Virus record (IMG/VR): IMGVR_UViG_3300048914_000231
Location: 1 to 64,000 of that record
Strand: one strand, 5' to 3'
From: a virus
Length of the DNA stretch: 64,000 nucleotides
Part shown: positions 13,160 through 25,353 of the stretch, one piece after another
Position numbering within the stretch: the first letter of the stretch is position 1
Layout: each line of letters opens with the position of its first letter
Program-made: the position numbers and the translations under genes
Notes under the pieces: model-generated
Told to the model about the DNA's origin: nothing
The model's input: only the letters and a program-made list of their open reading frames with translations
The model's database searches: none

Positions 13160-13999
13160 TTATTCCGGCAGGTCGCTCAGGAGGTCGTCGAGCTCGGTGT
13201 CGAGCGACGGTGCTGCCGACGCGGCCGACTTGACGTCGACAGTTTCGGTCATGTCCAGGTCCGGCACGTCATCGAAGTCGGCCTTCGGTTTGCCCGTCAG
13301 GCGCGGGGCGCCCGCACCTGCCGTAGCCGCACCTGCCGCCGGCAACAGACCGGCGATACCGTTGACCGCGCCGATTGCACGGCGCTGCTGCTCGTCCGAT
13401 TCCTGCTTGACGTAGTCGGCCAGGTTGTTCAGCTTGGCCAGTACCGAGACGTTGTACGGCGCGGTTTTCGGCGTGATCTGCGCGGTGTAGGTCGTGTTCA
13501 GACCCTTGCCGTCGCGGTTGATCAGGATTTCCTTGCCGTTGGTCGGATCGAACACGGCTTCGGCGCCCCACTCGCTGATGATTTCGATCAGCTGGCCGAA
13601 TACGCTGCGCTTGATTTCCAGAATCTGCGGCGTGTTGGGTTCTTCCGAGTCCAGCAGCAGCGCGTTGATCAGGACGGTACGCGACGGACGACCCTTTTCC
13701 AGCACCTTGGCGAGCTCGTCGTCGCCGCAGTTCTTGATGCCCTGCGCGATGGCGTTGCAGACCGGGCAGTCCTGTTCGTGCGTGGCGCTCGTGCACAGGT
13801 ACACCGCCTTGATGGTGTCGGTTTCGTCCTTGATGAAGTGTTGACCGAAGTCCTGGAAGAAGACTTCTTCCCTGCCTTTTTCCCAGCCCGGCAGCAGGCG
13901 GATGCGGTTCTTGCCCGGTTTCAGTTTGGCGGTCTTTTCGACCTTTTGCATTGCGGCCTTTTTGGAAGCCATCAGGGCCATCAGTTTTGCGTTATCCAT
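13160..13999 (-). CDS. gp32-like single-stranded DNA-binding protein
   Basis: 279 residues, near T4 gp32 (301). LKPGKNRIRLLPGW (about 27-40) and FFQDFGQHFIKD (about 47-58) match the OB-fold region. YLCTSATHEQDCPVCN (about 67-82) provides Cys, His, Cys, Cys, the zinc-ribbon set of gp32. The C-terminus is Ala-rich, then strongly acidic (LDTELDDLLSDLPE), the usual protein-binding tail. The open frame extends to 14062, but the -10 box at 14072-14067 would start RNA near 14060, and the lysine-rich N-terminus begins properly at ATG 13999. Confidence 0.85.
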   Translation of the reverse strand: MDNAKLMALMASKKAAMQKVEKTAKLKPGKNRIRLLPGWEKGREEVFFQDFGQHFIKDETDTIKAVYLCTSATHEQDCPVCNAIAQGIKNCGDDELAKVLEKGRPSRTVLINALLLDSEEPNTPQILEIKRSVFGQLIEIISEWGAEAVFDPTNGKEILINRDGKGLNTTYTAQITPKTAPYNVSVLAKLNNLADYVKQESDEQQRRAIGAVNGIAGLLPAAGAATAGAGAPRLTGKPKADFDDVPDLDMTETVDVKSAASAAPSLDTELDDLLSDLPE

Positions 14000-14066
14000 G
14001 GTTTGCAGTCTTTCGTAGTGGTAGTAGTTTGTCAGCGCCTTTAGACTTGCGTCGTTCAGCACTTAC

Positions 14067-15664: not shown

Positions 15665-18600
15665 TCATTCGAGAATCTCCGCAACCTTGGCGAACACCGC
15701 GTTGAGGATTTCCTGCTTCGACGCATCGAAGTGGATCATACCCGGGTTGATACCGCAGACGATCGAGGCATCGAGCTTGGAGTCGTACACGACCTTGCCG
15801 ACCAGATCGGCCGGCTTGGCGCCCGGGATCAGGTGCTTGATCGCGGCGCTACCCAGCGCGACGATGATGGGTGGCCTGACCAGTTCCAGTTCGCGCCTGA
15901 AGAACCCGGTGCAGCCATTTAACTGCTCGCGCGTCAAGAACTTGTCATTCTTTTTGGCCTTCACCAGCGCGGTGTAGTAGCCCGCGTTCGGGCTCAACCC
16001 GTTTTCTTTCATCGCGAGCTTGATGCATTCCGCCGCGTCGCCAACGAGGTACTTCTCGTTCTTCTCTTCCTGCCAGGTCGGTGAGTCCTCGACGACCATG
16101 AACCTGGCCCTGTCGCCGGTGCGCACCGCCGGATGCAGCTGGCCTGCCAGGTCGCAGTCCTGGCACTTGCGGTATTCCTGCACGAGGTGAATGATCTTCT
16201 GGCGCACGAACGGGTCTTTCGTATCCGTCTCACGTTCCGCCTTGACGGCGTCGACGATCAGGCCGGGCATCAGTTCCATCTGCTCGCGCCGGCGGTCAGG
16301 GTGGCGCGCGGGAAGCGCGGTCGGGTCGACCGACGCCATCGCGCCGACCGCCTTGAGCACGTCCACGACCTTGCTGTTGACTTTCGAGCCGGCCAGACCG
16401 GCCGTCATTTCGAACTCTTCCACGCTGTCGAAGCGCCCCTTGACCGGGCCGGCCTTGTCGACGTCGTACACCGGCTCCAGCGTGCCGTCGCGCTTCTTCT
16501 TGTCGCGCACCTTGACGATGCCGCGGTTGTTCTCGCGCAGTTCAACGATGCGGCGCGCGGTGGTCTCCGAGATACCCTTGACGGCGCTGAACGGGGCCAG
16601 GATGTGCTTGTCGTCAGGGATCGTGAAGCGGTCGCTGGACAGGTTGATGTCGGGCGGCAGCACTTCGATGCCACACGAACGCGCGTCGTTGACCAGACCG
16701 GGAATCTTGTCCTCGTCATCCACGATCGACAGCGTGGCAGCGAAGTATTCGGCCGGGTAGCGCACGCGCATCCACATCGTCCACACGGAAATGATGGAGT
16801 ATTCCACCGAGTGCGAGCGGTTGAAGCCGTAGCCTGCGAACGCTTCGATCTTGTCGAACAGGTCGCCGGCGATCAGCGGGTCCATGCTGGACTTGGTCTC
16901 GCAGCCCTTAACCCACTTCTCGCGCATTTCGGCCATCTTGTCCTTGTCCTTCTTGCCCATCGCCTTGCGCAGGTGGTCTGCTTCGGCGCCGGTGAAGCCG
17001 GCCAGGTCGACGGACAATTGCATGACCTGTTCCTGGTACACGACCACGCCATAGGTCGGCGCAAGGGCCGGCTCCATGTTCGGGTGCTCGTAATACGGCA
17101 GCTTGTGGCCCTGTTTGATCGCGACGAAGTCCGACAGCATGCCGGACTCCATCGGACCCGGGCGGTACAGCGCGGTGGCCGCCGTAATGTCTTCGAACGT
17201 CAGGTTGCCGCCCTTGGCCAAGTCGCGCAGGAGCTTGCGCATGCCCGATGATTCGAACTGGAACACGCCAGTGGTGTCGCCCGCTGCGAATGCCGCCATG
17301 ACGTCGGGTTCCTCCAGCGGCAGATTGATGTAGCTGACGTCGATCCCATGCCGGTCCTTGACGTAACGGCGCGCGATCTCCAGCGTATCGAGCGTGGACA
17401 AGCCCAGAATGTCCATCTTGACCAGACCCCAGTCCTCGACCACGCGCTTGTCCCAGTTCGTGACCGGCAGGTCGCCCGCGCGTGTTTCGATCACGGCGCG
17501 GTTCGACAGCGGTTCGCCGCCCACGACGACGCCGGCGGCGTGCTGTGAGAAGTTGCGCACGATGCCTTCGAGTTTGAGCGCGTGGTTCCAGATGTCGGGA
17601 TAGTCGCGGCGCAGGTTGTCCAGTTCGTTGACGGCGTCGGCCGCCTCGGTCAGGCTCTTCGGGATGCCCTGCTCTTTCGGCACCAGCTTGGTTGCCGCCA
17701 GCACGCTGTTGTCCAGTTCGAACATGCGGCCCGTGTCGCGCAGGGCCGATGCCGACGCCAGCGTACCGAAGTTCGAAATGCCAGCGACGCGGTCTTCGCC
17801 GTACTTGCCGCGCAGGTACTCGATCACTTCGTGGCGACGCGTCGACATGAAGTCCAGGTCGGCGTCGGGCAAGTCCAGACGCTCCGGGTTGATGAAGCGC
17901 TCAAACAGCAGGTTGAAACGGATCGGATCGACGTCGGTAATGCCGATCAGGTAAGCGACCAGCGAACCGCCGACCGAACCGCGGCCAGGCCCGACGATGA
18001 TGCCATTTGACTTCGACCACATGACGAGGTCTTCGACCAGCAGAAAGTAGCCGGCAAAGCCCATCTTTTTCAGGACCGACAGTTCGTACTTGAGGCGGGC
18101 TTGATATTTCGGAATATCGGCCGGGTCCGGGACGTAGCCCAGGATCGGCTGCGTGAAGCGACGCTTCCAGCCGTCGATGCACTTCCTGCCCAGCGCTGCG
18201 AACTCGTCGTCCGCCATCTTCGGCAGCGAGACCGGCAGCTTCTTGAATTCGTAGGTGCAGGCGGCGGCGATCTTCTCGATGTTGGCCAGTGCCTGCTTCC
18301 ACACGTGACCGGCGTTGATGCCGTTCCACTTGACGATGCGGCCGTGCGCCGCGGTAACGCGCTTGGCGATCGATGTCGGCCCTTTGAACCCGAAGTCGCG
18401 CACGTACTGTTGCGCGCGCCACGGGTCGCTCATGCTCTTGATCATCGGGTTGCTGATGGCGGCCATGACTTCGAGCGTGTCGGCGTCGGTGTCGTTCCGG
18501 TACATGAACGGGTAGCTGGCGATTGGGCGCGCGGCCGCGCCCATCTTGCGGGACAGTTCCAGCGCCTGCAGCGCGCGGGCGTTCAGGGTATCGAACAGCG

Positions 18601-19135
18601 GCGTGTCGACCGGCGTCAGTTCGACGTACAGGCGCTCGCCGAACTTCATGGTCAGGTGGTTCAGGCGATGGTCGTATTCTGGATGCGTGAACAGGTTGTA
18701 GAAGTCGCCGGTGGTGACGATCACGCCTTCCAGGCCCAGCATTTCTTCCCAGCCGATGCGCGACTGGTAGTAGAAGTATTCCGGCGTGTTGCCCTTGGAA
18801 AGCGCCTTGATCAGGCTCTTGATGCCGGTGTCGTCGATGGCGTACGCCTTGAGCATCACCAGCGGGTTCGGCTTGGCTTCTTCACCCGAGTTCTTGGCCG
18901 GCGTGCGGTAGGTCGGATCGTCGACCACGCGCAGGCGGCAGCCGATGATCGGCTTGATACCGGCCTTCTTGCACTTGTTGGAGAAGTCCACCATATTGGA
19001 AACGCTCATGTCGTCGACCAGCGCCACCGATTCGTAGCCGTGCTTCTTGGCCTCTTCGATGATGTGGTCGACCTGCAGGAGCGAATTGCCGACGGAAAAA
19101 TCGCTGCGTACGCTTAACGCATGATTCAGGTTCAT
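15665..19135 (-). CDS. dnaE: DNA polymerase III alpha subunit (DnaE-like) fused to a uracil-DNA-glycosylase-like domain
   Basis: 1156-residue replicative polymerase. The N-terminal PHP-like domain lacks the usual metal histidines (ALSVRSDFSVGNS where HLHxxYSxxDG is expected), so it should not proofread. The C-family palm has GPGRGSVGGSLVAYLIGI and the aspartates of LPDADLDF; further on come VVYQEQVMQLS and FNRSHSVEYS. Residues about 988-1156 (nt 15665-16174) form a second domain: YRKCQDCDL, MVVEDSP, YLVGDAAE, YTALVKAK, PPIIVALGSAA and GINPGMI, in the order of family 4/5 UDG. ATG 19135 has AAGGCG upstream; the longer frame overlaps another gene. Confidence 0.93.
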   Translation of the reverse strand: MNLNHALSVRSDFSVGNSLLQVDHIIEEAKKHGYESVALVDDMSVSNMVDFSNKCKKAGIKPIIGCRLRVVDDPTYRTPAKNSGEEAKPNPLVMLKAYAIDDTGIKSLIKALSKGNTPEYFYYQSRIGWEEMLGLEGVIVTTGDFYNLFTHPEYDHRLNHLTMKFGERLYVELTPVDTPLFDTLNARALQALELSRKMGAAARPIASYPFMYRNDTDADTLEVMAAISNPMIKSMSDPWRAQQYVRDFGFKGPTSIAKRVTAAHGRIVKWNGINAGHVWKQALANIEKIAAACTYEFKKLPVSLPKMADDEFAALGRKCIDGWKRRFTQPILGYVPDPADIPKYQARLKYELSVLKKMGFAGYFLLVEDLVMWSKSNGIIVGPGRGSVGGSLVAYLIGITDVDPIRFNLLFERFINPERLDLPDADLDFMSTRRHEVIEYLRGKYGEDRVAGISNFGTLASASALRDTGRMFELDNSVLAATKLVPKEQGIPKSLTEAADAVNELDNLRRDYPDIWNHALKLEGIVRNFSQHAAGVVVGGEPLSNRAVIETRAGDLPVTNWDKRVVEDWGLVKMDILGLSTLDTLEIARRYVKDRHGIDVSYINLPLEEPDVMAAFAAGDTTGVFQFESSGMRKLLRDLAKGGNLTFEDITAATALYRPGPMESGMLSDFVAIKQGHKLPYYEHPNMEPALAPTYGVVVYQEQVMQLSVDLAGFTGAEADHLRKAMGKKDKDKMAEMREKWVKGCETKSSMDPLIAGDLFDKIEAFAGYGFNRSHSVEYSIISVWTMWMRVRYPAEYFAATLSIVDDEDKIPGLVNDARSCGIEVLPPDINLSSDRFTIPDDKHILAPFSAVKGISETTARRIVELRENNRGIVKVRDKKKRDGTLEPVYDVDKAGPVKGRFDSVEEFEMTAGLAGSKVNSKVVDVLKAVGAMASVDPTALPARHPDRRREQMELMPGLIVDAVKAERETDTKDPFVRQKIIHLVQEYRKCQDCDLAGQLHPAVRTGDRARFMVVEDSPTWQEEKNEKYLVGDAAECIKLAMKENGLSPNAGYYTALVKAKKNDKFLTREQLNGCTGFFRRELELVRPPIIVALGSAAIKHLIPGAKPADLVGKVVYDSKLDASIVCGINPGMIHFDASKQEILNAVFAKVAEILE

Positions 19136-19151: not shown

Positions 19152-19844
19152 TCAGGTTGAGGTTTTATTATCGCAACGCAGTGCAGGATTGAGCACGAAT
19201 CGCTCTTGGGGGTCTTGCACCATGATGCCGAAGCTGTACAGCAGCGCACAGCCAACGGCCACGTGACTGCCGGCGGTGCCGTCTGCCCAGTCCAGTTCCT
19301 TGACCAGGCGCGCTTTGTATTGCGCTTTCGTGAGACCGCCACGCAGCAGCATGTCGCATACGATGCGCAGGTACTGTGGCCCGCCCTTAGCGAACGGGTT
19401 TTGCCCGCGCGGGAGCATGGCGCGCATGTCGTTGACGCGGTTGTTTCTGCACAACGTGGCGGCGGCCTCCTTCGCCTTCACGCTCTTGGCGCCGAGCGCA
19501 TCGATCACGCGCTGGTCCTCGACGCTGACCGCGTAGGCAACCTTGGCTACCGGGGTGGTGCGCTCGACGATTGCCGCCACGTTCGGCTGCGTCACCGGGA
19601 TCGGCGACGTCACCATTGGGTGGCTGGGCGTCGGCGTGGCCAGCTGCGCCTTCCTGCGCGCATTCTCGTGCTGGGCCAGCAAGTCCTTGATGTTGACAAT
19701 CTCGCGCAGCGCCTGCAGACGCTCGTACGCCACCTGACCGCATGCCTGGTAGGCGACGCATGCCCGGCATACGGCCGAATCCGTGCTGTACGTGCTGGCG
19801 GCGCCAAAGCAACCCGGCGCCTGCTGTTCTGGTGTCGCGCTCAT
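19152..19844 (-). CDS. Hypothetical protein with N-terminal four-cysteine cluster (230 aa)
   Basis: Unrecognised. The N-terminus holds C12, C26, C29 and C35 in CFG-x11-C-x2-C-x5-C, which could bind zinc or an iron-sulfur cluster. A Pro/Thr-rich linker (about 68-95) leads to an alpha-helical C-terminal domain with basic stretches (KARLVKELDW). Its start overlaps the end of the sigma-like gene (ATGA), so the two are translationally coupled; it ends 16 nt before the polymerase start. A DNA-related or transcription-related role is plausible from position alone. Confidence 0.65.
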   Translation of the reverse strand: MSATPEQQAPGCFGAASTYSTDSAVCRACVAYQACGQVAYERLQALREIVNIKDLLAQHENARRKAQLATPTPSHPMVTSPIPVTQPNVAAIVERTTPVAKVAYAVSVEDQRVIDALGAKSVKAKEAAATLCRNNRVNDMRAMLPRGQNPFAKGGPQYLRIVCDMLLRGGLTKAQYKARLVKELDWADGTAGSHVAVGCALLYSFGIMVQDPQERFVLNPALRCDNKTST

Positions 19845-20608
19845 TCCCGTTCCGCCTTTTCAATCCGTTCAACCGCGCGCATCAGTTCACCCTGCGCCAT
19901 GGTCAGTTCGCGCTTCGTGAGGTCGCCGATGAGGGCGAGAAAGTCGCAGATCGCCGCCAGCGTGATGCCGTCGCGCAGACCGTATGCACGCTTGCCAAAA
20001 GCGGTGCACTCGTCAGCGTACGCGCGCTTTGCGGCGATCTCTTGCAAAAGCTGTTCGGGCGGGTCGCGCAGCATGTCGACGATGACACGGGCAAGGGGTG
20101 AGAGCCCCGCTTCTTCCTTCGCCCACAGGTCGGCCTGTTCGATGCGCGTAGCCGGGTCGATACCGTCGCGGTCGGCCAGGGCCGCCTCGAAAGGCTCGTC
20201 GCGAATGTCGTCACCCAGCGGCATGTTGCTGAACTGCGTCGGCTCCAGGCCGTACCTGATGTCAGGCAGTTCGCGCATGCCGGCGGCGCGGCGCCGCCCG
20301 TTCTCTTCCTTGCGTGCGGCGATTTCCGCGCGCTGTCCCTCGTTCAGATTCTTGACGCCGGTGATGATGCCGATTTCCTTGCGAAATTCGGAGAACGCCA
20401 CCTGCGTGTAGTAGGTGCTGAACTTGTGGCCGCTGTCGGGGTTGTAGCCGGCTGCCGCGACGTAAAACGCGAGGCTGGCGACCTGAAACATGTCGTTGTA
20501 GTCCAGGACGCCGCCGGCGCCGGCGCCCTGCGCCCACCTGTAGCCGTTCATGGCCTGCATGTGGATCAGACCTTTGTGGTCTTCAAAACGGGGTGCCGTT
20601 GCCTGCAT
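19841..20608 (-). CDS. Sigma-70 region 2-like protein without region 4 (putative phage sigma factor)
   Basis: 255 residues. Residues 11-80 match sigma-70 regions 2.1-2.4: HKGLIHMQAMNGYRWA, LDYNDMFQVASLAFYVAAAGYNPDSGHKFSTYYTQ (here split: DYNDMFQVASLAF, then NPDSGHKFSTYY), then AFSEFRKEIG. The motif D-x-x-Q, the hydrophobic core and G-x-x-FSTY are all present. The remaining 170 residues are mixed helical with no recognisable region 4. It could recruit host RNA polymerase to -10-only promoters, as T4 gp55 does. It could also be a sigma-derived protein with another job. It is coupled to the four-cysteine gene downstream. Confidence 0.65.
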   Translation of the reverse strand: MQATAPRFEDHKGLIHMQAMNGYRWAQGAGAGGVLDYNDMFQVASLAFYVAAAGYNPDSGHKFSTYYTQVAFSEFRKEIGIITGVKNLNEGQRAEIAARKEENGRRRAAGMRELPDIRYGLEPTQFSNMPLGDDIRDEPFEAALADRDGIDPATRIEQADLWAKEEAGLSPLARVIVDMLRDPPEQLLQEIAAKRAYADECTAFGKRAYGLRDGITLAAICDFLALIGDLTKRELTMAQGELMRAVERIEKAERE

Positions 20609-20610
20609 GA

Positions 20611-21297
20611 TTATGCAGCCTCCAACTGTTCGCCGCGTGCGCGCGCCCAGCGGCGATAACCCGCCTCCGACAGCTTGCGGCGTGTTTCTTCGGTCGCCTT
20701 ACGACCCTTGAGAGCCTCAGACAGTTTGCGCTTCGTCTCTTCGGCCAGCGGCTTGCCGGTGAACAGACTGCGCAGCTTTTCGATATGCTCGGCGCTGACC
20801 TTGCGACCCTTGCCGGATGCCGACAGTCTGGCCCGGGTCTCTTCCGATACTTGATACCCTGTCTCTTTTTTCATCTTTTCCCTTTCGATCGCCGCTTCCC
20901 GAAGGCGCTGCCTGGTCTCTTCTGAAATTGGCTTGCGCGCTTTGTGCGATGCGCGCATCTTGGCCTTTGTTTCTTCGCTGTGCTTCTTGCCCTTGTGAGG
21001 CGCTTCCGAGAACATGGCGACGTTGTAGCCGTTTCGCACCACGTCCAATTCATCGATCACTTGCTGCTCCCGTTCCAATAATCCATCTATCGGGTGTCGC
21101 TCCATGACCACAATCTTGAAAGCGCCTTCACCATATTCATTCCACGCCTCTTGCAGCTTGTATGAGTGATGCTTGTTGCCTCGCAGCTTGCTCAAGTGGG
21201 TCTTGAAGCGCCGGTGTAGATTGTGGGCGCTGCCGACATACTTCTTGCCGGTAGCGATATGTTCGATGCAGTAAATGCCAGAGTCTTTCAGGGTCAT
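20611..21297 (-). CDS. GIY-YIG homing endonuclease with NUMOD3 repeats
   Basis: 229-residue free-standing endonuclease. GIY-YIG core at residues 5-90: SGIYCIEH, KYVGSA, LHRRFKTHL with the catalytic Arg, and LLEREQQVIDEL with the catalytic Glu. After that come at least four NUMOD3-type motifs (KKHSEETKAKM, KPISEETRQRL, PLAEETKRKLSEA, KATEETRRKLSEA), the usual DNA-contact repeats. ATG 21297 is chosen because the -10 box at 21337-21332 rules out the longer frame. It lies between cobS-like and sigma-like genes, with the sigma-like ribosome site over its last codons. Confidence 0.92.
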   Translation of the reverse strand: MTLKDSGIYCIEHIATGKKYVGSAHNLHRRFKTHLSKLRGNKHHSYKLQEAWNEYGEGAFKIVVMERHPIDGLLEREQQVIDELDVVRNGYNVAMFSEAPHKGKKHSEETKAKMRASHKARKPISEETRQRLREAAIEREKMKKETGYQVSEETRARLSASGKGRKVSAEHIEKLRSLFTGKPLAEETKRKLSEALKGRKATEETRRKLSEAGYRRWARARGEQLEAA

Positions 21298-21331
21298 GAT
21301 GGGTAAGCCAATTCGTTGTGTCGACCTACCC

Positions 21332-21351
21332 ATTATAACTCATTCCTGACT
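21332..21351 (-). promoter_or_regulatory. Class A promoter with operator abutting -10
   Basis: On the minus strand AGTCA-GGAA-TGAGT (21351-21338) directly abuts TATAAT (21337-21332). One mismatch in the right half-site. Drives the GIY-YIG gene and probably the sigma-like and polymerase genes beyond it. Confidence 0.75.
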
Positions 21352-21365
21352 GAATACGCTGTGCA

Positions 21366-22568
21366 TTACTTCTTACTTCCGAATATCCTCTGCGCGATAC
21401 CGCCGGCGACTTCACGGTCGACCTTGGACAGCTTGCTGATGAACGACTTCTCCAGACCGTGCGCGAATGAACCGCGCATGATACCGATCTGGCTCGCGTA
21501 GATCAGCGTACGCGGCGAAATCGTGTCGCTCATCTTGGCGCCATCGAATGCCTGGCGAATTTCGGTTGCGAACTGGACCATCTTGTCGGCATCCTTCGGG
21601 GTCAGCTTGGCCCGGTTCTGCAGCATGATGATTTCCTTGTCCTTCGGCATGTACTGCTTGTGGATCACCATGCCGAAACGGTCGTAGTTCGCGCTGTTCT
21701 GGATCAGCGTGCCCTGATACAGGCCCGACTCGTCGCCCGAACCGTTGGTGTTGCCGGTGGCGACCAGACGGAAGTTCGGGTGCGGCTCGATCACGCGCAT
21801 TTCGGCCGGTGCTTCCTTGATCACCAGTGCCTTGCCTTCGAGGACCGGCTGGTACACGGCCAGCACGCTCGGCTGGGCGAAATCGTATTCGTCGAGCACG
21901 AGCGTCCAGCCATGTTTCATGGCCAGGGCCAGCGGGCCAAGTTCGAAGTGGGTGTTACCGCCCTTGACGGTCCATTGCCCGATGATGTGGCTCTCTTCGG
22001 TATTGGCCGAGTGCTGCACGCGCAGCATGGGGCGGTTGGTGCGGGCGCAGACCTGTTCGAACAGTTCCGACTTGCCCGAGCCCTTGTGGCCCCAGACGTA
22101 GCACGGGATGTTCACCTCCAGCGCCAGAATCACGTCCTTCAGTTCGCCCGGCAGGTAGACGTATTCCTCGCTGACCTTGGGCACCATGTTCGGCTGGTCG
22201 TGCGAAGCCAGCACCGAGATCGGGATCGGGCCACCCTTGGCGTTCATGGCTTCGGGGTCGCTGCCAAGTTCGAACACTTCGTGCAGCGGCTTCTTGATGA
22301 TGCCGCTGGGCGGGACCAGTGCGGCGGCGTTCGCGGCCGGCGTTTCCTTCACCGCGGCAGGCGCCGCCCCGGCAGCTGCAGCGGCTTCCTTCGCCTGTTT
22401 TTGGGCGATCAGCTGCTTGGCATACGGGGAGTAAATTTCGGCAAGCGGGTGCTTTTCCTGGTAGTCGGCCAGGCTCATGCCCGGGTGCGCCGACTCCAGG
22501 TGCTTGCTGATCACGTGTACTTCCGCGCCGCATTCTTCGCAGGTGATCTTGTCGTTCTGGTCTGCCAT
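21366..22568 (-). CDS. cobS: CobS-like MoxR-family AAA+ ATPase with N-terminal zinc finger
   Basis: 400 residues. Residues 10-28 form a C2H2 finger (CEECG, then HLESAH) of the Ros/MucR kind. An Ala/Pro-rich linker follows. From about 135 the AAA+ module: Walker A GHKGSGKS (160-167), LVLDEYDFAQPSV as Walker B, and RLVATGNTNGSGD as sensor 1. This is the architecture of cobaltochelatase CobS. Phage CobS/CobT pairs lack the CobN partner and probably remodel a protein target instead of making cobalamin. The VWA partner is 23359-25284. It has its own class B promoter at 22627-22668. Confidence 0.88.
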   Translation of the reverse strand: MADQNDKITCEECGAEVHVISKHLESAHPGMSLADYQEKHPLAEIYSPYAKQLIAQKQAKEAAAAAGAAPAAVKETPAANAAALVPPSGIIKKPLHEVFELGSDPEAMNAKGGPIPISVLASHDQPNMVPKVSEEYVYLPGELKDVILALEVNIPCYVWGHKGSGKSELFEQVCARTNRPMLRVQHSANTEESHIIGQWTVKGGNTHFELGPLALAMKHGWTLVLDEYDFAQPSVLAVYQPVLEGKALVIKEAPAEMRVIEPHPNFRLVATGNTNGSGDESGLYQGTLIQNSANYDRFGMVIHKQYMPKDKEIIMLQNRAKLTPKDADKMVQFATEIRQAFDGAKMSDTISPRTLIYASQIGIMRGSFAHGLEKSFISKLSKVDREVAGGIAQRIFGSKK

Positions 22569-22698: not shown

Positions 22699-23355
22699 TT
22701 AGCCGGCCGACTGATCGAACCCCAATGCGCTCAACGTCTTGAGGATCGGCGCCACCGGAACGGTCAGAGGCATTGGCTTTTCGTAGTCCGGCAGATGTTT
22801 TTCAAGTTCCGGCATCTTCTCCACGATTTGCTTGTACGTCTTGACCGAATACAGAAACAGGCGCAGTTCGTCGCGGGCGCGTTTTTCATCTTCGCGAATC
22901 TTGTGTGCCTTCTTGAGCAGGTCGGCCAATTTGGCCTCCCAGCTTTCCATGTCAGCGGGGTTTCGCACGGGGTTGGTCCGGTCCGTGTAGTCCATGCCCT
23001 GATCAATGAAGTCGCTGCGACTGAAGCGGGTATTTATCGGGTGCCGGAACGGTTCGAACGATACTGGTATGCCCCAATGGCCGCTGCGCAGCTGTTCGTC
23101 CGACCATGTGGCGACACAGACCGGGTTGGCATTCGCCTTAATGTTTTCGGATGCGATCAGCGGGAACCATTCGGGCGGCAAATTCTTCGTCGCTGCCGGG
23201 AATTCTTTCGGTACACGCTCCAGGCACAGGGCACGCACGCGCGCCTCGGTGGCGCGCGCGAGTTCTTCCTTGCGCTTCGGGATAGTCGTGCCTTTTTCGA
23301 TCACGGAATCGATGATTTTCCGGCGAATTTCCTTGTTCAGTGTTGTCATGGTCAT
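22699..23355 (-). CDS. Hypothetical protein, possibly Nmad5-like (218 aa)
   Basis: Lies between the CobT-like and CobS-like genes, starting 3 nt after the former. It opens with TLNKEIRRKIIDSVI, has LPPEWFP near residue 60, a helical region (KAHKIREDEKRARDELRLFL), and ends near VKTYKQIVEKMPELEKHLP. This order recalls the phage family Nmad5, linked by gene neighbourhood to DNA base modification, but I cannot confirm it without a profile search. No catalytic motif is seen. The position inside the pair hints that it is a partner or substrate. Confidence 0.6.
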   Translation of the reverse strand: MTMTTLNKEIRRKIIDSVIEKGTTIPKRKEELARATEARVRALCLERVPKEFPAATKNLPPEWFPLIASENIKANANPVCVATWSDEQLRSGHWGIPVSFEPFRHPINTRFSRSDFIDQGMDYTDRTNPVRNPADMESWEAKLADLLKKAHKIREDEKRARDELRLFLYSVKTYKQIVEKMPELEKHLPDYEKPMPLTVPVAPILKTLSALGFDQSAG

Positions 23356-23358
23356 TCC

Positions 23359-25284
23359 TTATTTTGCCAGCAAGAGTCTCAATTCACGCATGATGAGGGG
23401 CGGGAGTTCCTTGACGTCATGGATCACCATCGCCTTCGGGTAGAACTCACGCACCGAATCATCCTTGATACCGATGCCAATCATGTTCACGCCGGACATC
23501 GACATGCGCTCCACGACCTTTTTCAGGTGCAGGTTCAGGCCGTCGTAGTCGCTCGTGTAGCAGGCCGGATGGCCGTCGGACAGCACGATCATGATCTTGC
23601 CCTTTTCCTTGCGCCGCAACAGGCGCATGCCGGCCAGTTCGACCGATTCGCCGTCGACGTTGTTGGCCAGGCTGCTGCAGTTGGGCAGCCAGGCGAAGCG
23701 CTGCTTGACGCCGGTAGACATGCGCTCGTCGAAGCCCTTCAGGATCGGCATGTACAGCGGCTCGACCCGGGTGAAGCCGCGCCCGAGCATTTCCTCTTCC
23801 TTGAGCACGTCTTCCGACTTCAGATAGCTGTGGCCACCGGTAGTGAAGCAGATCACTTCGCTGGTGATGCCGATCCGGTCCAGGGTCGAGGCCAGCGCAT
23901 ACGCCGCTTTGGCCGCCGTGTGAATCTTCCCGCCCGACATGGAGCCGGACATGTCGATCACCAGTTCGACCGCCACGTCCTTCGTCAGCACTTCCTGACG
24001 CTGGCGGAACACGCGGTCGTCGCCGGTCGACAGGCGATGTAGCGCCGCCGGGTTGACGCGGCCCGAACGCTGGCCGGGCGACCAGCGCTTGAGGCTGCGC
24101 GCGCTGATGGCGCGCTCCAGGTCTTTCTGCATCGGGCCGACCATGTGGTCGACTTCGTCCTGCATCGATTGCAGCATGGTCGGCTTGTATTCCGAGCCCA
24201 CCTTGAGCGGTTCGACCACGTCGTGGTCCGTGGTCCAGACGAGGTAGGGCGCCGCCTTGCTCGCGTCGATCACGCCGCTGGTCACCAGCTGCGAGAGCTT
24301 TTCGTCATACGTGTTGGCGAGCTCCTTTTCGATCGCGGACAGGCTGCCGCTGGTGCTGCCGTTGATGTGCGAGGTTATCGTTGCCTCTTCACGGTCGTCG
24401 CTCGGGTCTTCCTCTTCCTCACCTTCGCCCCCGGCAGCCGGGTCTTCCTCTTCGCCCTCGTCCTCTTCCTCGCCCGGCTTCTTTTCTTCCTTCGCCGAGT
24501 CATCGGTCAGACCAGGCTTGAAGCCTTCATCCTCTTCCCCTTCGCTCGGCCCGCCCCCACTGGTCAGCCCGCCCCCGCCACCGCCGGCACCGGGCTTGGT
24601 CATCGACGACATCCCGCTCGACGGCGCCGGCGTCGCGCCCCTGAGTGCCGCGCTGGCCTTTTCGGCGACACTCAGGGCGTCAGCACTGCTGCGCGCGCCG
24701 GCAATCAGCGGCTCCAGCGGCTTGAGCTTGTCGTACACGTCCTGAATATCGGCCATGTGCTGGTCGACGAAGTCCTTGAACACCTGCTGGCCAGCCATGC
24801 CGCGAATCACTGGCATGGTCAGAAGCGCCTCGACCTTTTCCTGATCGCCCGCAGCCTTCGCTTTTTTCAGTTCCGGGATCGTGTAGTTCTCCAGCAGAAA
24901 ACGCCCGGTGCCGGACAGGTTCTCGGCCGACCCTTCGAAGCGCTCGGCCATCAGGCGCTCGATGCGGGTGTCTTCCATCACGTTGTACATGCCGCCGATG
25001 CCCATCGACTGCGCCTTCGGCATGTCGTTGAAATCGGTGAACATGATGTGCGCGACCTCGTGGTCCAGGTAGCCCTGCAGCGCATCCAGCAGTTCCTGGG
25101 TGGCGTTGTCGGGAATGTACGGCAGGTTGACGCGAATCGGCTGACCCTTCGAGTCCGACTGCACATATGCCTGCGTACCCACTTGCGTGACGCTGATTTT
25201 CTTGCCTGCCAAAATCTGCGTGATTTTGACGATCGCCTCGCGCATCACGTGGATACGCTCTGCCATTCCCATTCCCCTGATCAT
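23359..25284 (-). CDS. cobT: CobT-like VWA-domain protein with HExxH motif
   Basis: 641 residues. Residues about 438-635 are a von Willebrand A domain with the MIDAS motif VIDMSGSMSG. The middle (about 240-300) is Gly-rich, then extremely acidic. Near residues 75-79 lies HEVAH in DHEVAHIMFTDF, the zinc-metalloprotease signature, followed by RIERLMAERFEG. CobT-type proteins work with a MoxR AAA+ ATPase, here the CobS-like gene. ATG 25284 is preferred: it has AAAGGGG upstream and lies below the operator, while codons nearer 25320 would lie at the RNA start. Confidence 0.87.
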   Translation of the reverse strand: MIRGMGMAERIHVMREAIVKITQILAGKKISVTQVGTQAYVQSDSKGQPIRVNLPYIPDNATQELLDALQGYLDHEVAHIMFTDFNDMPKAQSMGIGGMYNVMEDTRIERLMAERFEGSAENLSGTGRFLLENYTIPELKKAKAAGDQEKVEALLTMPVIRGMAGQQVFKDFVDQHMADIQDVYDKLKPLEPLIAGARSSADALSVAEKASAALRGATPAPSSGMSSMTKPGAGGGGGGLTSGGGPSEGEEDEGFKPGLTDDSAKEEKKPGEEEDEGEEEDPAAGGEGEEEEDPSDDREEATITSHINGSTSGSLSAIEKELANTYDEKLSQLVTSGVIDASKAAPYLVWTTDHDVVEPLKVGSEYKPTMLQSMQDEVDHMVGPMQKDLERAISARSLKRWSPGQRSGRVNPAALHRLSTGDDRVFRQRQEVLTKDVAVELVIDMSGSMSGGKIHTAAKAAYALASTLDRIGITSEVICFTTGGHSYLKSEDVLKEEEMLGRGFTRVEPLYMPILKGFDERMSTGVKQRFAWLPNCSSLANNVDGESVELAGMRLLRRKEKGKIMIVLSDGHPACYTSDYDGLNLHLKKVVERMSMSGVNMIGIGIKDDSVREFYPKAMVIHDVKELPPLIMRELRLLLAK

Positions 25285-25301
25285 GTGTTTCCCCTTTGTA
25301 A

Positions 25302-25353
25302 AGTCATTCGTGACTGACAACGCTATGATAGACTTGACCCGCAGGAGTCACAA
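25302..25353 (-). promoter_or_regulatory. Class B promoter with downstream operator, upstream of cobT-like gene
   Basis: -35 TTGTGA (25353-25348), 17-bp spacer beginning CTCCTGCGGG, -10 TATCAT (25330-25325). AGTCA-N4-TGACT (25302-25315) covers the region just after the transcription start and before the ribosome site of the gene starting at 25284. Confidence 0.78.

Follow-up and report, generated by a model that had tools for sequence, protein, structure and literature searches.

The subject of this study is a gene for a DnaE-type (C-family) DNA polymerase which lies on a stretch of viral DNA of 64,000 nucleotides, positions 1 to 64,000 of IMG/VR record IMGVR_UViG_3300048914_000231 (this whole stretch is called the window below); the window belongs to a virus record of 114,062 bases. 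The gene is an open frame of 1156 codons on the minus strand, beginning with the ATG at 19135 and closed by the stop codon at 15665, and along it Pfam recognizes in this order a PHP domain, the polymerase III alpha core, the fingers, HHH and a uracil-DNA glycosylase (UDG) domain. Its features are the following.

15665-19135, minus strand: DnaE-type (C-family) DNA polymerase with C-terminal UDG-like domain, 1156 amino acids (Pfam; PHROG_405, a family labelled only 'DNA polymerase', over residues 4-1155)
18650-19114, minus strand: PHP domain (residues 8-162) with substituted metal ligands (Pfam, 4.9e-18; ligand census of 39 sequences)
17402-18187, minus strand: polymerase catalytic core DNA_pol3_alpha (residues 317-578; Pfam, 1.3e-81)
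17858-17866, minus strand: catalytic Asp424 and Asp426 in PDADLDF (conserved in 39/39)
17411-17413, minus strand: catalytic Asp575 in KMDILGL (conserved in 39/39)
16895-17395, minus strand: fingers domain (residues 581-747; Pfam, 6.2e-52)
16502-16672, minus strand: HHH motif (HHH_6) of the beta-binding region (residues 822-878; Pfam, 2.5e-13)
16259-16282, minus strand: candidate clamp-binding motif QMELMPGL (residues 952-959), by its likeness to bacterial clamp-binding motifs
15668-16174, minus strand: UDG-like domain (residues 988-1156; Pfam UDG, PDB profile matches, AlphaFold2 model, Foldseek)
15911-16165, minus strand: candidate 3Cys-1His metal site of Cys991, Cys994, His1001 and Cys1075 (all four in 50/61, absent as a set in 11)
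16064-16090, minus strand: motif A EDSPTWQEE (Asp1017, Pro1019, Glu1023, Glu1024) replacing GEAPGxxED (Asp1017 in 61/61)
15941-15979, minus strand: pocket strand YYTALVKAKKNDK (residues 1053-1065), with Ala1056 for Asn and invariant Tyr1053, Thr1055, Lys1059 and Lys1062
15743-15754, minus strand: motif B GINP (residues 1128-1131) replacing HPS/HPA (Asn1130 in 60/61, Ser in 1/61)

The residues of the PHP domain and of the polymerase were counted in 39 full-length sequences, those of the motifs and the metal site in 61 C-terminal sequences of the C-family group, and the pocket was assessed through sequence alignment.

It had been proposed from the letters of the DNA alone that the polymerase core continues in one frame into a UDG-type domain, and the searches and the models agree with this. 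Pfam UDG (PF03167) was matched at residues 1009-1116 with 2.5e-6, above the curated cut-off, and with 1.2e-7 when the C-terminal piece was searched alone. A PDB search with the single sequence matched TM0511 at 1.4e-10, and the profile search of the C-terminal region that had been suggested along with the original prediction matched 4zbx at 8.3e-18 (35-row profile). The AlphaFold2 model of residues 960-1156 (197 residues) reached a predicted local distance difference test score (pLDDT) of 89.8 and a predicted template modelling score (pTM) of 0.89, and its best solved relatives are the family 4 UDGs 4zbx, 1vk2 and 1ui0 (template modelling (TM) score 0.79-0.82); the full-length model (pLDDT 87.6, pTM 0.72) was matched by Foldseek to the bacterial DnaE 2hpi (2.8e-59) and, at the C-terminal end, to UDGs. 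Judged by these models the C-terminal domain is a family 4 UDG fold, uninterrupted in the polymerase frame. Another fold or an interruption of the frame would have spoken against the fusion; the fold found is that of a UDG, the fusion recurs, and all the motifs quoted in the original prediction are present.

The recurrence is extensive. With coverage of the protein set at 80% or more, tblastn matched 31 records of phages and 906 of plasmids; 57 IMG/VR loci match as well, and most of the matches extend over the full length. The IMG/VR loci, the named phages and the window together give 49 full-length copies; since the fusion recurs across IMG/VR, phage and plasmid records, a sequencing or frame error is excluded. 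In all 23 whole records searched the UDG lies within the polymerase frame, and the sole second UDG copy, in a 215 kb record (G010), belongs to a different frame, which is as long as a polymerase (1149 aa). That record (215,656 bases, locus L043) has two each of the UDG-polymerases, DnaQ and Nmad5 as well as two different ThyX genes, and it is probably an assembly in which two related phages were merged. At two loci (L042 and L062) the gene is broken within the polymerase, near residue 749, the UDG part being still joined to the beta-binding region. The first pieces of both end in a segment (of the type DGT...TVEEA..AGV) which is found unbroken in SSU5 (L003), Rfam recognized no intron in these two split genes, and a NUMOD4 gene lies at the polymerase break of an Acinetobacter baumannii copy (NZ_CP096699). 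A GIY-YIG/NUMOD3 gene is located near the polymerase of the window, at 20611-21333.

With DnaE of Taq (3e0d) and E. coli (2hnh) the protein has in common the core, the fingers, HHH, the PHP fold and the active-site aspartates; it differs from them in its substituted PHP ligands and in having a UDG-like tail where the OB fold and the tau-binding domain would be expected. PDB sequence matches to cellular or solved DnaE end at residue 874, and neither an OB fold nor a tau-binding domain was found in the polymerase of the window by Pfam or among the PDB sequence matches, and the UDG-like domain occupies the usual place of these two. Intact PHP metal ligands are not universal in the C-family, and the OB and tau-binding domains are accessory, not needed for membership in it. 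The PHP domain was correctly recognized beforehand as degenerate: 8 of the 9 expected ligand positions are substituted, likewise in nearly all of the 39 relatives. A separate DnaQ-like exonuclease is encoded in 23/23 records (here at record position 100203-100679), so that proofreading would likely be supplied in trans by this enzyme of the phage. Since the DnaQ-type exonuclease is so regularly present, and since the PHP domain of E. coli DnaE is likewise degenerate, the state of the PHP domain needs no link to base modification. Additionally, the QxELMPGL motif just ahead of the UDG-like domain probably binds the sliding clamp, as its residues suggest (Q in 35/39, L955 in 37/39); the UDG-like domain follows 36-41 residues further on in all of them.

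The fold of the C-terminal domain is common to the family 4 UDGs 4zbx, TM0511 and TthUDG (TM about 0.8), and the CxxC and the fourth cysteine position of these enzymes are mostly kept in the C-family domains, but the motif A Glu, the pocket Asn, the third iron-sulphur (Fe-S) Cys and the motif B His are replaced and His1001 is added. That the usual UDG motifs are altered had been noticed earlier, and the census extends this to the whole group. Motif A has the consensus xDxPxxxEE instead of the family 4 GE(A/G)PGxxED, with Glu changed to Asp in 61/61; the pocket Asn (family 4 TNxVKC) is replaced by Thr, Ala, Ser or Gly in 61/61; thus the canonical Glu, Asn and His are all replaced in every one of the 61 C-terminal sequences. 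The same three residues are kept in 80, 79 and 80 of 80 cellular family 4 UDGs, where the scan itself relied on the Glu motif and so biased that count but not the one for His, and in 0, 0 and 0 of 19 C-family fusions; of three phage UDGs that stand alone, all kept Glu and His, and two of them Asn. The KRRIH-type insert of UdgX with its covalent His109 is missing from the domain of the window in the profile alignment.

What the group lacks in canonical residues is accompanied by a new set of constant ones. In the alignment the (nearly) invariant residues stand mostly at the former pocket (Asp1017, Pro1019, Glu1023, Glu1024, Tyr1053, Thr1055, Asn1130), the others being the nearby lysines 1059, 1062 and 1065. 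The domain thus appears, from its aligned residues, to be without the canonical catalytic and recognition residues of UDGs, yet its pocket is conserved in an altered form. None of the 39 full-length relatives has a Cys at the position of the third family 4 Fe-S cysteine. The Cys-Cys-His-Cys (CCHC) set was lost in L047, though its near relatives L041, L055 and L038 keep it, and in the tree this loss is separate from the loss in the RHEph10-like group; such an all-or-none pattern is what a metal site predicts, and the four residues are a candidate for one, with Zn or Fe-S. The ratio of nonsynonymous to synonymous substitution rates (dN/dS) in nine pairs was 0.055-0.26 for the UDG-like domain, near the 0.05-0.19 of the polymerase core and mostly below the ratio of the PHP domain. 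By this measure purifying selection acts on the domain as it does on the core, which marks it as a working part and not a decaying one.

UDG-like domains occur on polymerases of another kind as well. Phage searches with the domain of the window and with the N-terminal domain of the Lebethron family A polymerase found family A polymerases with a UDG-like domain in SPO1, Serbin, Zuko, SM1, Vibrio MAR10 and others, and Foldseek against viral models added SP-15, EFLK1, Porthos, Motura and more. A UDG fused to a family A phage polymerase has been published for PaBG gp205 (PMC7412058). These fusions (SPO1 gp31, PaBG gp205, SM1) resemble the window in that a UDG fold stands in the chain of a replicative polymerase, but the polymerase family is unrelated and the domain is N-terminal; the Fe-S cysteines are mostly retained in them, as is, in many cases, the motif B His, whereas the window retains neither the complete set nor the His. 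Among 11 family A fusion domains SPO1 alone keeps Glu, phiXF1 alone keeps Asn, and six keep His. Foldseek also matched a region of the solved phiLo polymerase (PDB 9qhs) to the domain of the window (E 8.9e-5, TM 0.59); this polymerase belongs to family A and was not recovered by the sequence search using the window's domain.

The relationship of the two kinds of fusion was followed in trees that included family 5 and UdgX as further groups and were built without the motif columns. The grouping of the polymerase domains in a first tree was set aside, since other UDG families were absent from it and a rooting effect was possible, and the tree was rebuilt. The C-family domains form a single clade (100/99), and the A and C fusions stand together at 76/86 with all rows and at 97/92 after the removal of five long rows. 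The alternative to this A and C grouping was not rejected by the approximately unbiased test (p 0.089). One origin of the A and C fusion domains, with transfer between the polymerase families, is therefore favoured rather than demonstrated by the aligned sequences.

The loss of the catalytic residues from a domain that is nevertheless strongly conserved favours a non-cutting, DNA-binding reading, and we consider it probable that the domain is a non-cutting DNA-binding module which acts in cis and replaces the OB fold. A DnaE ancestor would have lost the tail with the OB fold and the tau-binding part, and the vacant place would have gone to a family 4 UDG fold in diverged form; the domain would no longer cut N-glycosidic bonds and would hold the template or single-stranded DNA as the lost OB fold would, and a flipped base may be read in its pocket, which is altered but invariant. 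The DNA binding is inferred from the fold and the position. The guess of binding without cutting, made in the original prediction, gains from the replacement of the canonical residues in 61/61 and from the dN/dS of 0.055-0.26. Several points weigh on the other side. Loss of canonical residues is no proof of lost activity, and the supposed loss of activity is read from the sequence; E. coli MUG is active with NPS at motif B, and family 5 UDGs are active without the motif A Glu (GLAPA). Furthermore the domain could instead be a protein-docking site that replaces the tau-binding tail.

Overlapping with the DNA-binding module is the possibility, which we hold to be doubtful, that the domain is a read-ahead base sensor which flips out a uracil of the template (or a changed thymine), reads it and makes the polymerase stall, likened to the N-terminal uracil pocket of the archaeal family B polymerases. 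The pocket is conserved but rebuilt, which suits a sensor, and the related domain of SPO1 gp31 adjoins a dUMP hydroxymethylase in a phage with changed thymine; by fold, related domains stand on the SP-15 polymerase and on the phiLo polymerase 'with modified template' (9qhs), and the sampled family A fusions are often beside genes of thymidylate synthase or dCMP deaminase. However, the uracil-selecting Asn of family 4 is replaced in every C-family copy, no recognized thymine hypermodification enzyme turned up among about 45 genes scanned, and the module is present by fold also on the polymerases of EFLK1 (Enterococcus) and Porthos, for which we know of no thymine modification. A bolder form would be that one UDG-derived module, transferred between two polymerase families unrelated to each other and shifted from the N-terminus to the C-terminus, reads template bases in phage replisomes without cutting them; to this we give only a small chance, and if it is true, phages have in this module an equivalent of the pocket by which archaea read ahead for uracil, its own pocket being rebuilt and accompanied by a metal site of the Cys-Cys-His-Cys type.

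That the domain merely docks a protein in place of the tau-binding tail, with no role on DNA, seems unlikely to us: it does sit at the place of the OB and tau domains, and in some lineages the metal site was lost while the domain was retained, but the invariant residues appear to gather in the ligand pocket instead of being scattered over the surface, and the fold comes from a DNA-binding superfamily. An active glycosylase of changed chemistry or substrate, tethered to the fork for the removal of uracil or lesions, is quite improbable. The conservative change of Glu to Asp in motif A, the conserved acidic pair 1023-1024, the motif B Asn as in MUG and the strong purifying selection are in agreement with it; nevertheless none of the 61 sequences keeps the canonical Glu, Asn or His, the Fe-S cysteine set is altered or absent, and cutting of template bases at the fork would make abasic blocks.

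The wider proposal of the original prediction, that the domain reflects uracil or hypermodified bases in the DNA of the phage, is very improbable: the Nmad5 gene at 22699-23355 that hinted at it is real (5.7e-12), and in most related records having Nmad5 this gene lies within about 2-6 kb of a ThyX-like gene, but Nmad5 is present in only 11/23 related records as against 23/23 for the UDG domain, no known base-hypermodification gene was found among the genes scanned, and the ThyX-like gene of the record argues against uracil DNA (PMC7824862). In the jumbo-phage survey the absence of thymidylate synthase or Thy1 and of dUTPase was the expected mark of uracil-DNA phages (PMC7824862), and the present record encodes a ribonucleotide reductase together with the ThyX-like protein. 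The type of thymidylate synthase is exclusive and complete in the related records, ThyA-like in 5/23 and ThyX-like in 18/23; the universal presence of one or the other (23/23) was dropped as a pointer to modified thymine, since most jumbo phages carry either (PMC7824862). dUTPase (PF00692) was found in only 6/23 records, therefore control of uracil by dUTPase is at most partial. The ThyX-like gene is at record position 108749-109669, outside the window, and the Nmad5 gene of the window has CobT as its neighbour and is distant from ThyX. Dhillonvirus phages with a point mutation in nmad5 escape the Tmn defence, and those with nmad5 deleted do not (PMC11846954).

Among the named relatives found, those nearest to the window are plasmids of A. 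baumannii, about 107-115 kb in size and with 56-58% identity; their size and host fit the AB_1 phage-plasmids, for which a distant likeness to SSU5 has been described (PMC12977533). When 20 kb of the window were compared with phage records by megablast no match appeared, relatives there being seen at the protein level only. Compared by polymerase homology and gene order, the source is a large phage related to the AB_1/SSU5 phage-plasmids. Phage-plasmids of this kind (SSU5, RHEph10, A. baumannii p1DB053) have the same polymerase-UDG fusion as the window and a common gene setting of CobT, CobS, the polymerase, a 5'-3' exonuclease and often RecA; their polymerases are 37-58% identical to that of the window, and the copies of RHEph10 and SSU5, unlike the window, are without the CCHC set.

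The family A fusion is already published, and the C-family version was found only in the notes of database records. The RHEph10 record describes its C-family fusion as 'uracil-DNA glycosylase-like', a split A. baumannii copy is annotated 'uracil-DNA glycosylase family protein', and the PDB holds UDG-family entries named 'Phage SPO1 DNA polymerase-related protein'. A literature search for a C-family polymerase-UDG fusion found none, with few subscription papers covered, so that an earlier description may exist; a polymerase survey of 2026 and a polymerase-swap paper of 2024 with its preprint do not mention UDG. The polymerase is present on hundreds of plasmid records, many from Acinetobacter, Klebsiella, Escherichia and Rhizobium hosts, and its tail was found noted only as automatic annotation. 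If this tail is a non-cutting UDG module, a repair enzyme has been turned into a part of the replisome, apparently in common to two unrelated polymerase families.

Among the neighbouring genes, a CobS-like AAA ATPase and a CobT-like VWA protein (21366-22568 and 23359-25320 in the window) are located a few genes upstream of the polymerase, and such a pair is likewise upstream of the polymerase in RHEph10, SSU5, nickie and A. baumannii p1DB053. The gene at 19841-20608, also upstream, has a weak match to sigma-70 region 2 (4.4e-4, below the cut-off), and RHEph10 has an annotated sigma factor similarly placed. Despite the DnaE-type polymerase, a T4 gp32-like single-strand binding protein (1.6e-22) is encoded at 13160-14062, adjoining the genes of the 5'-3' exonuclease and RecA.

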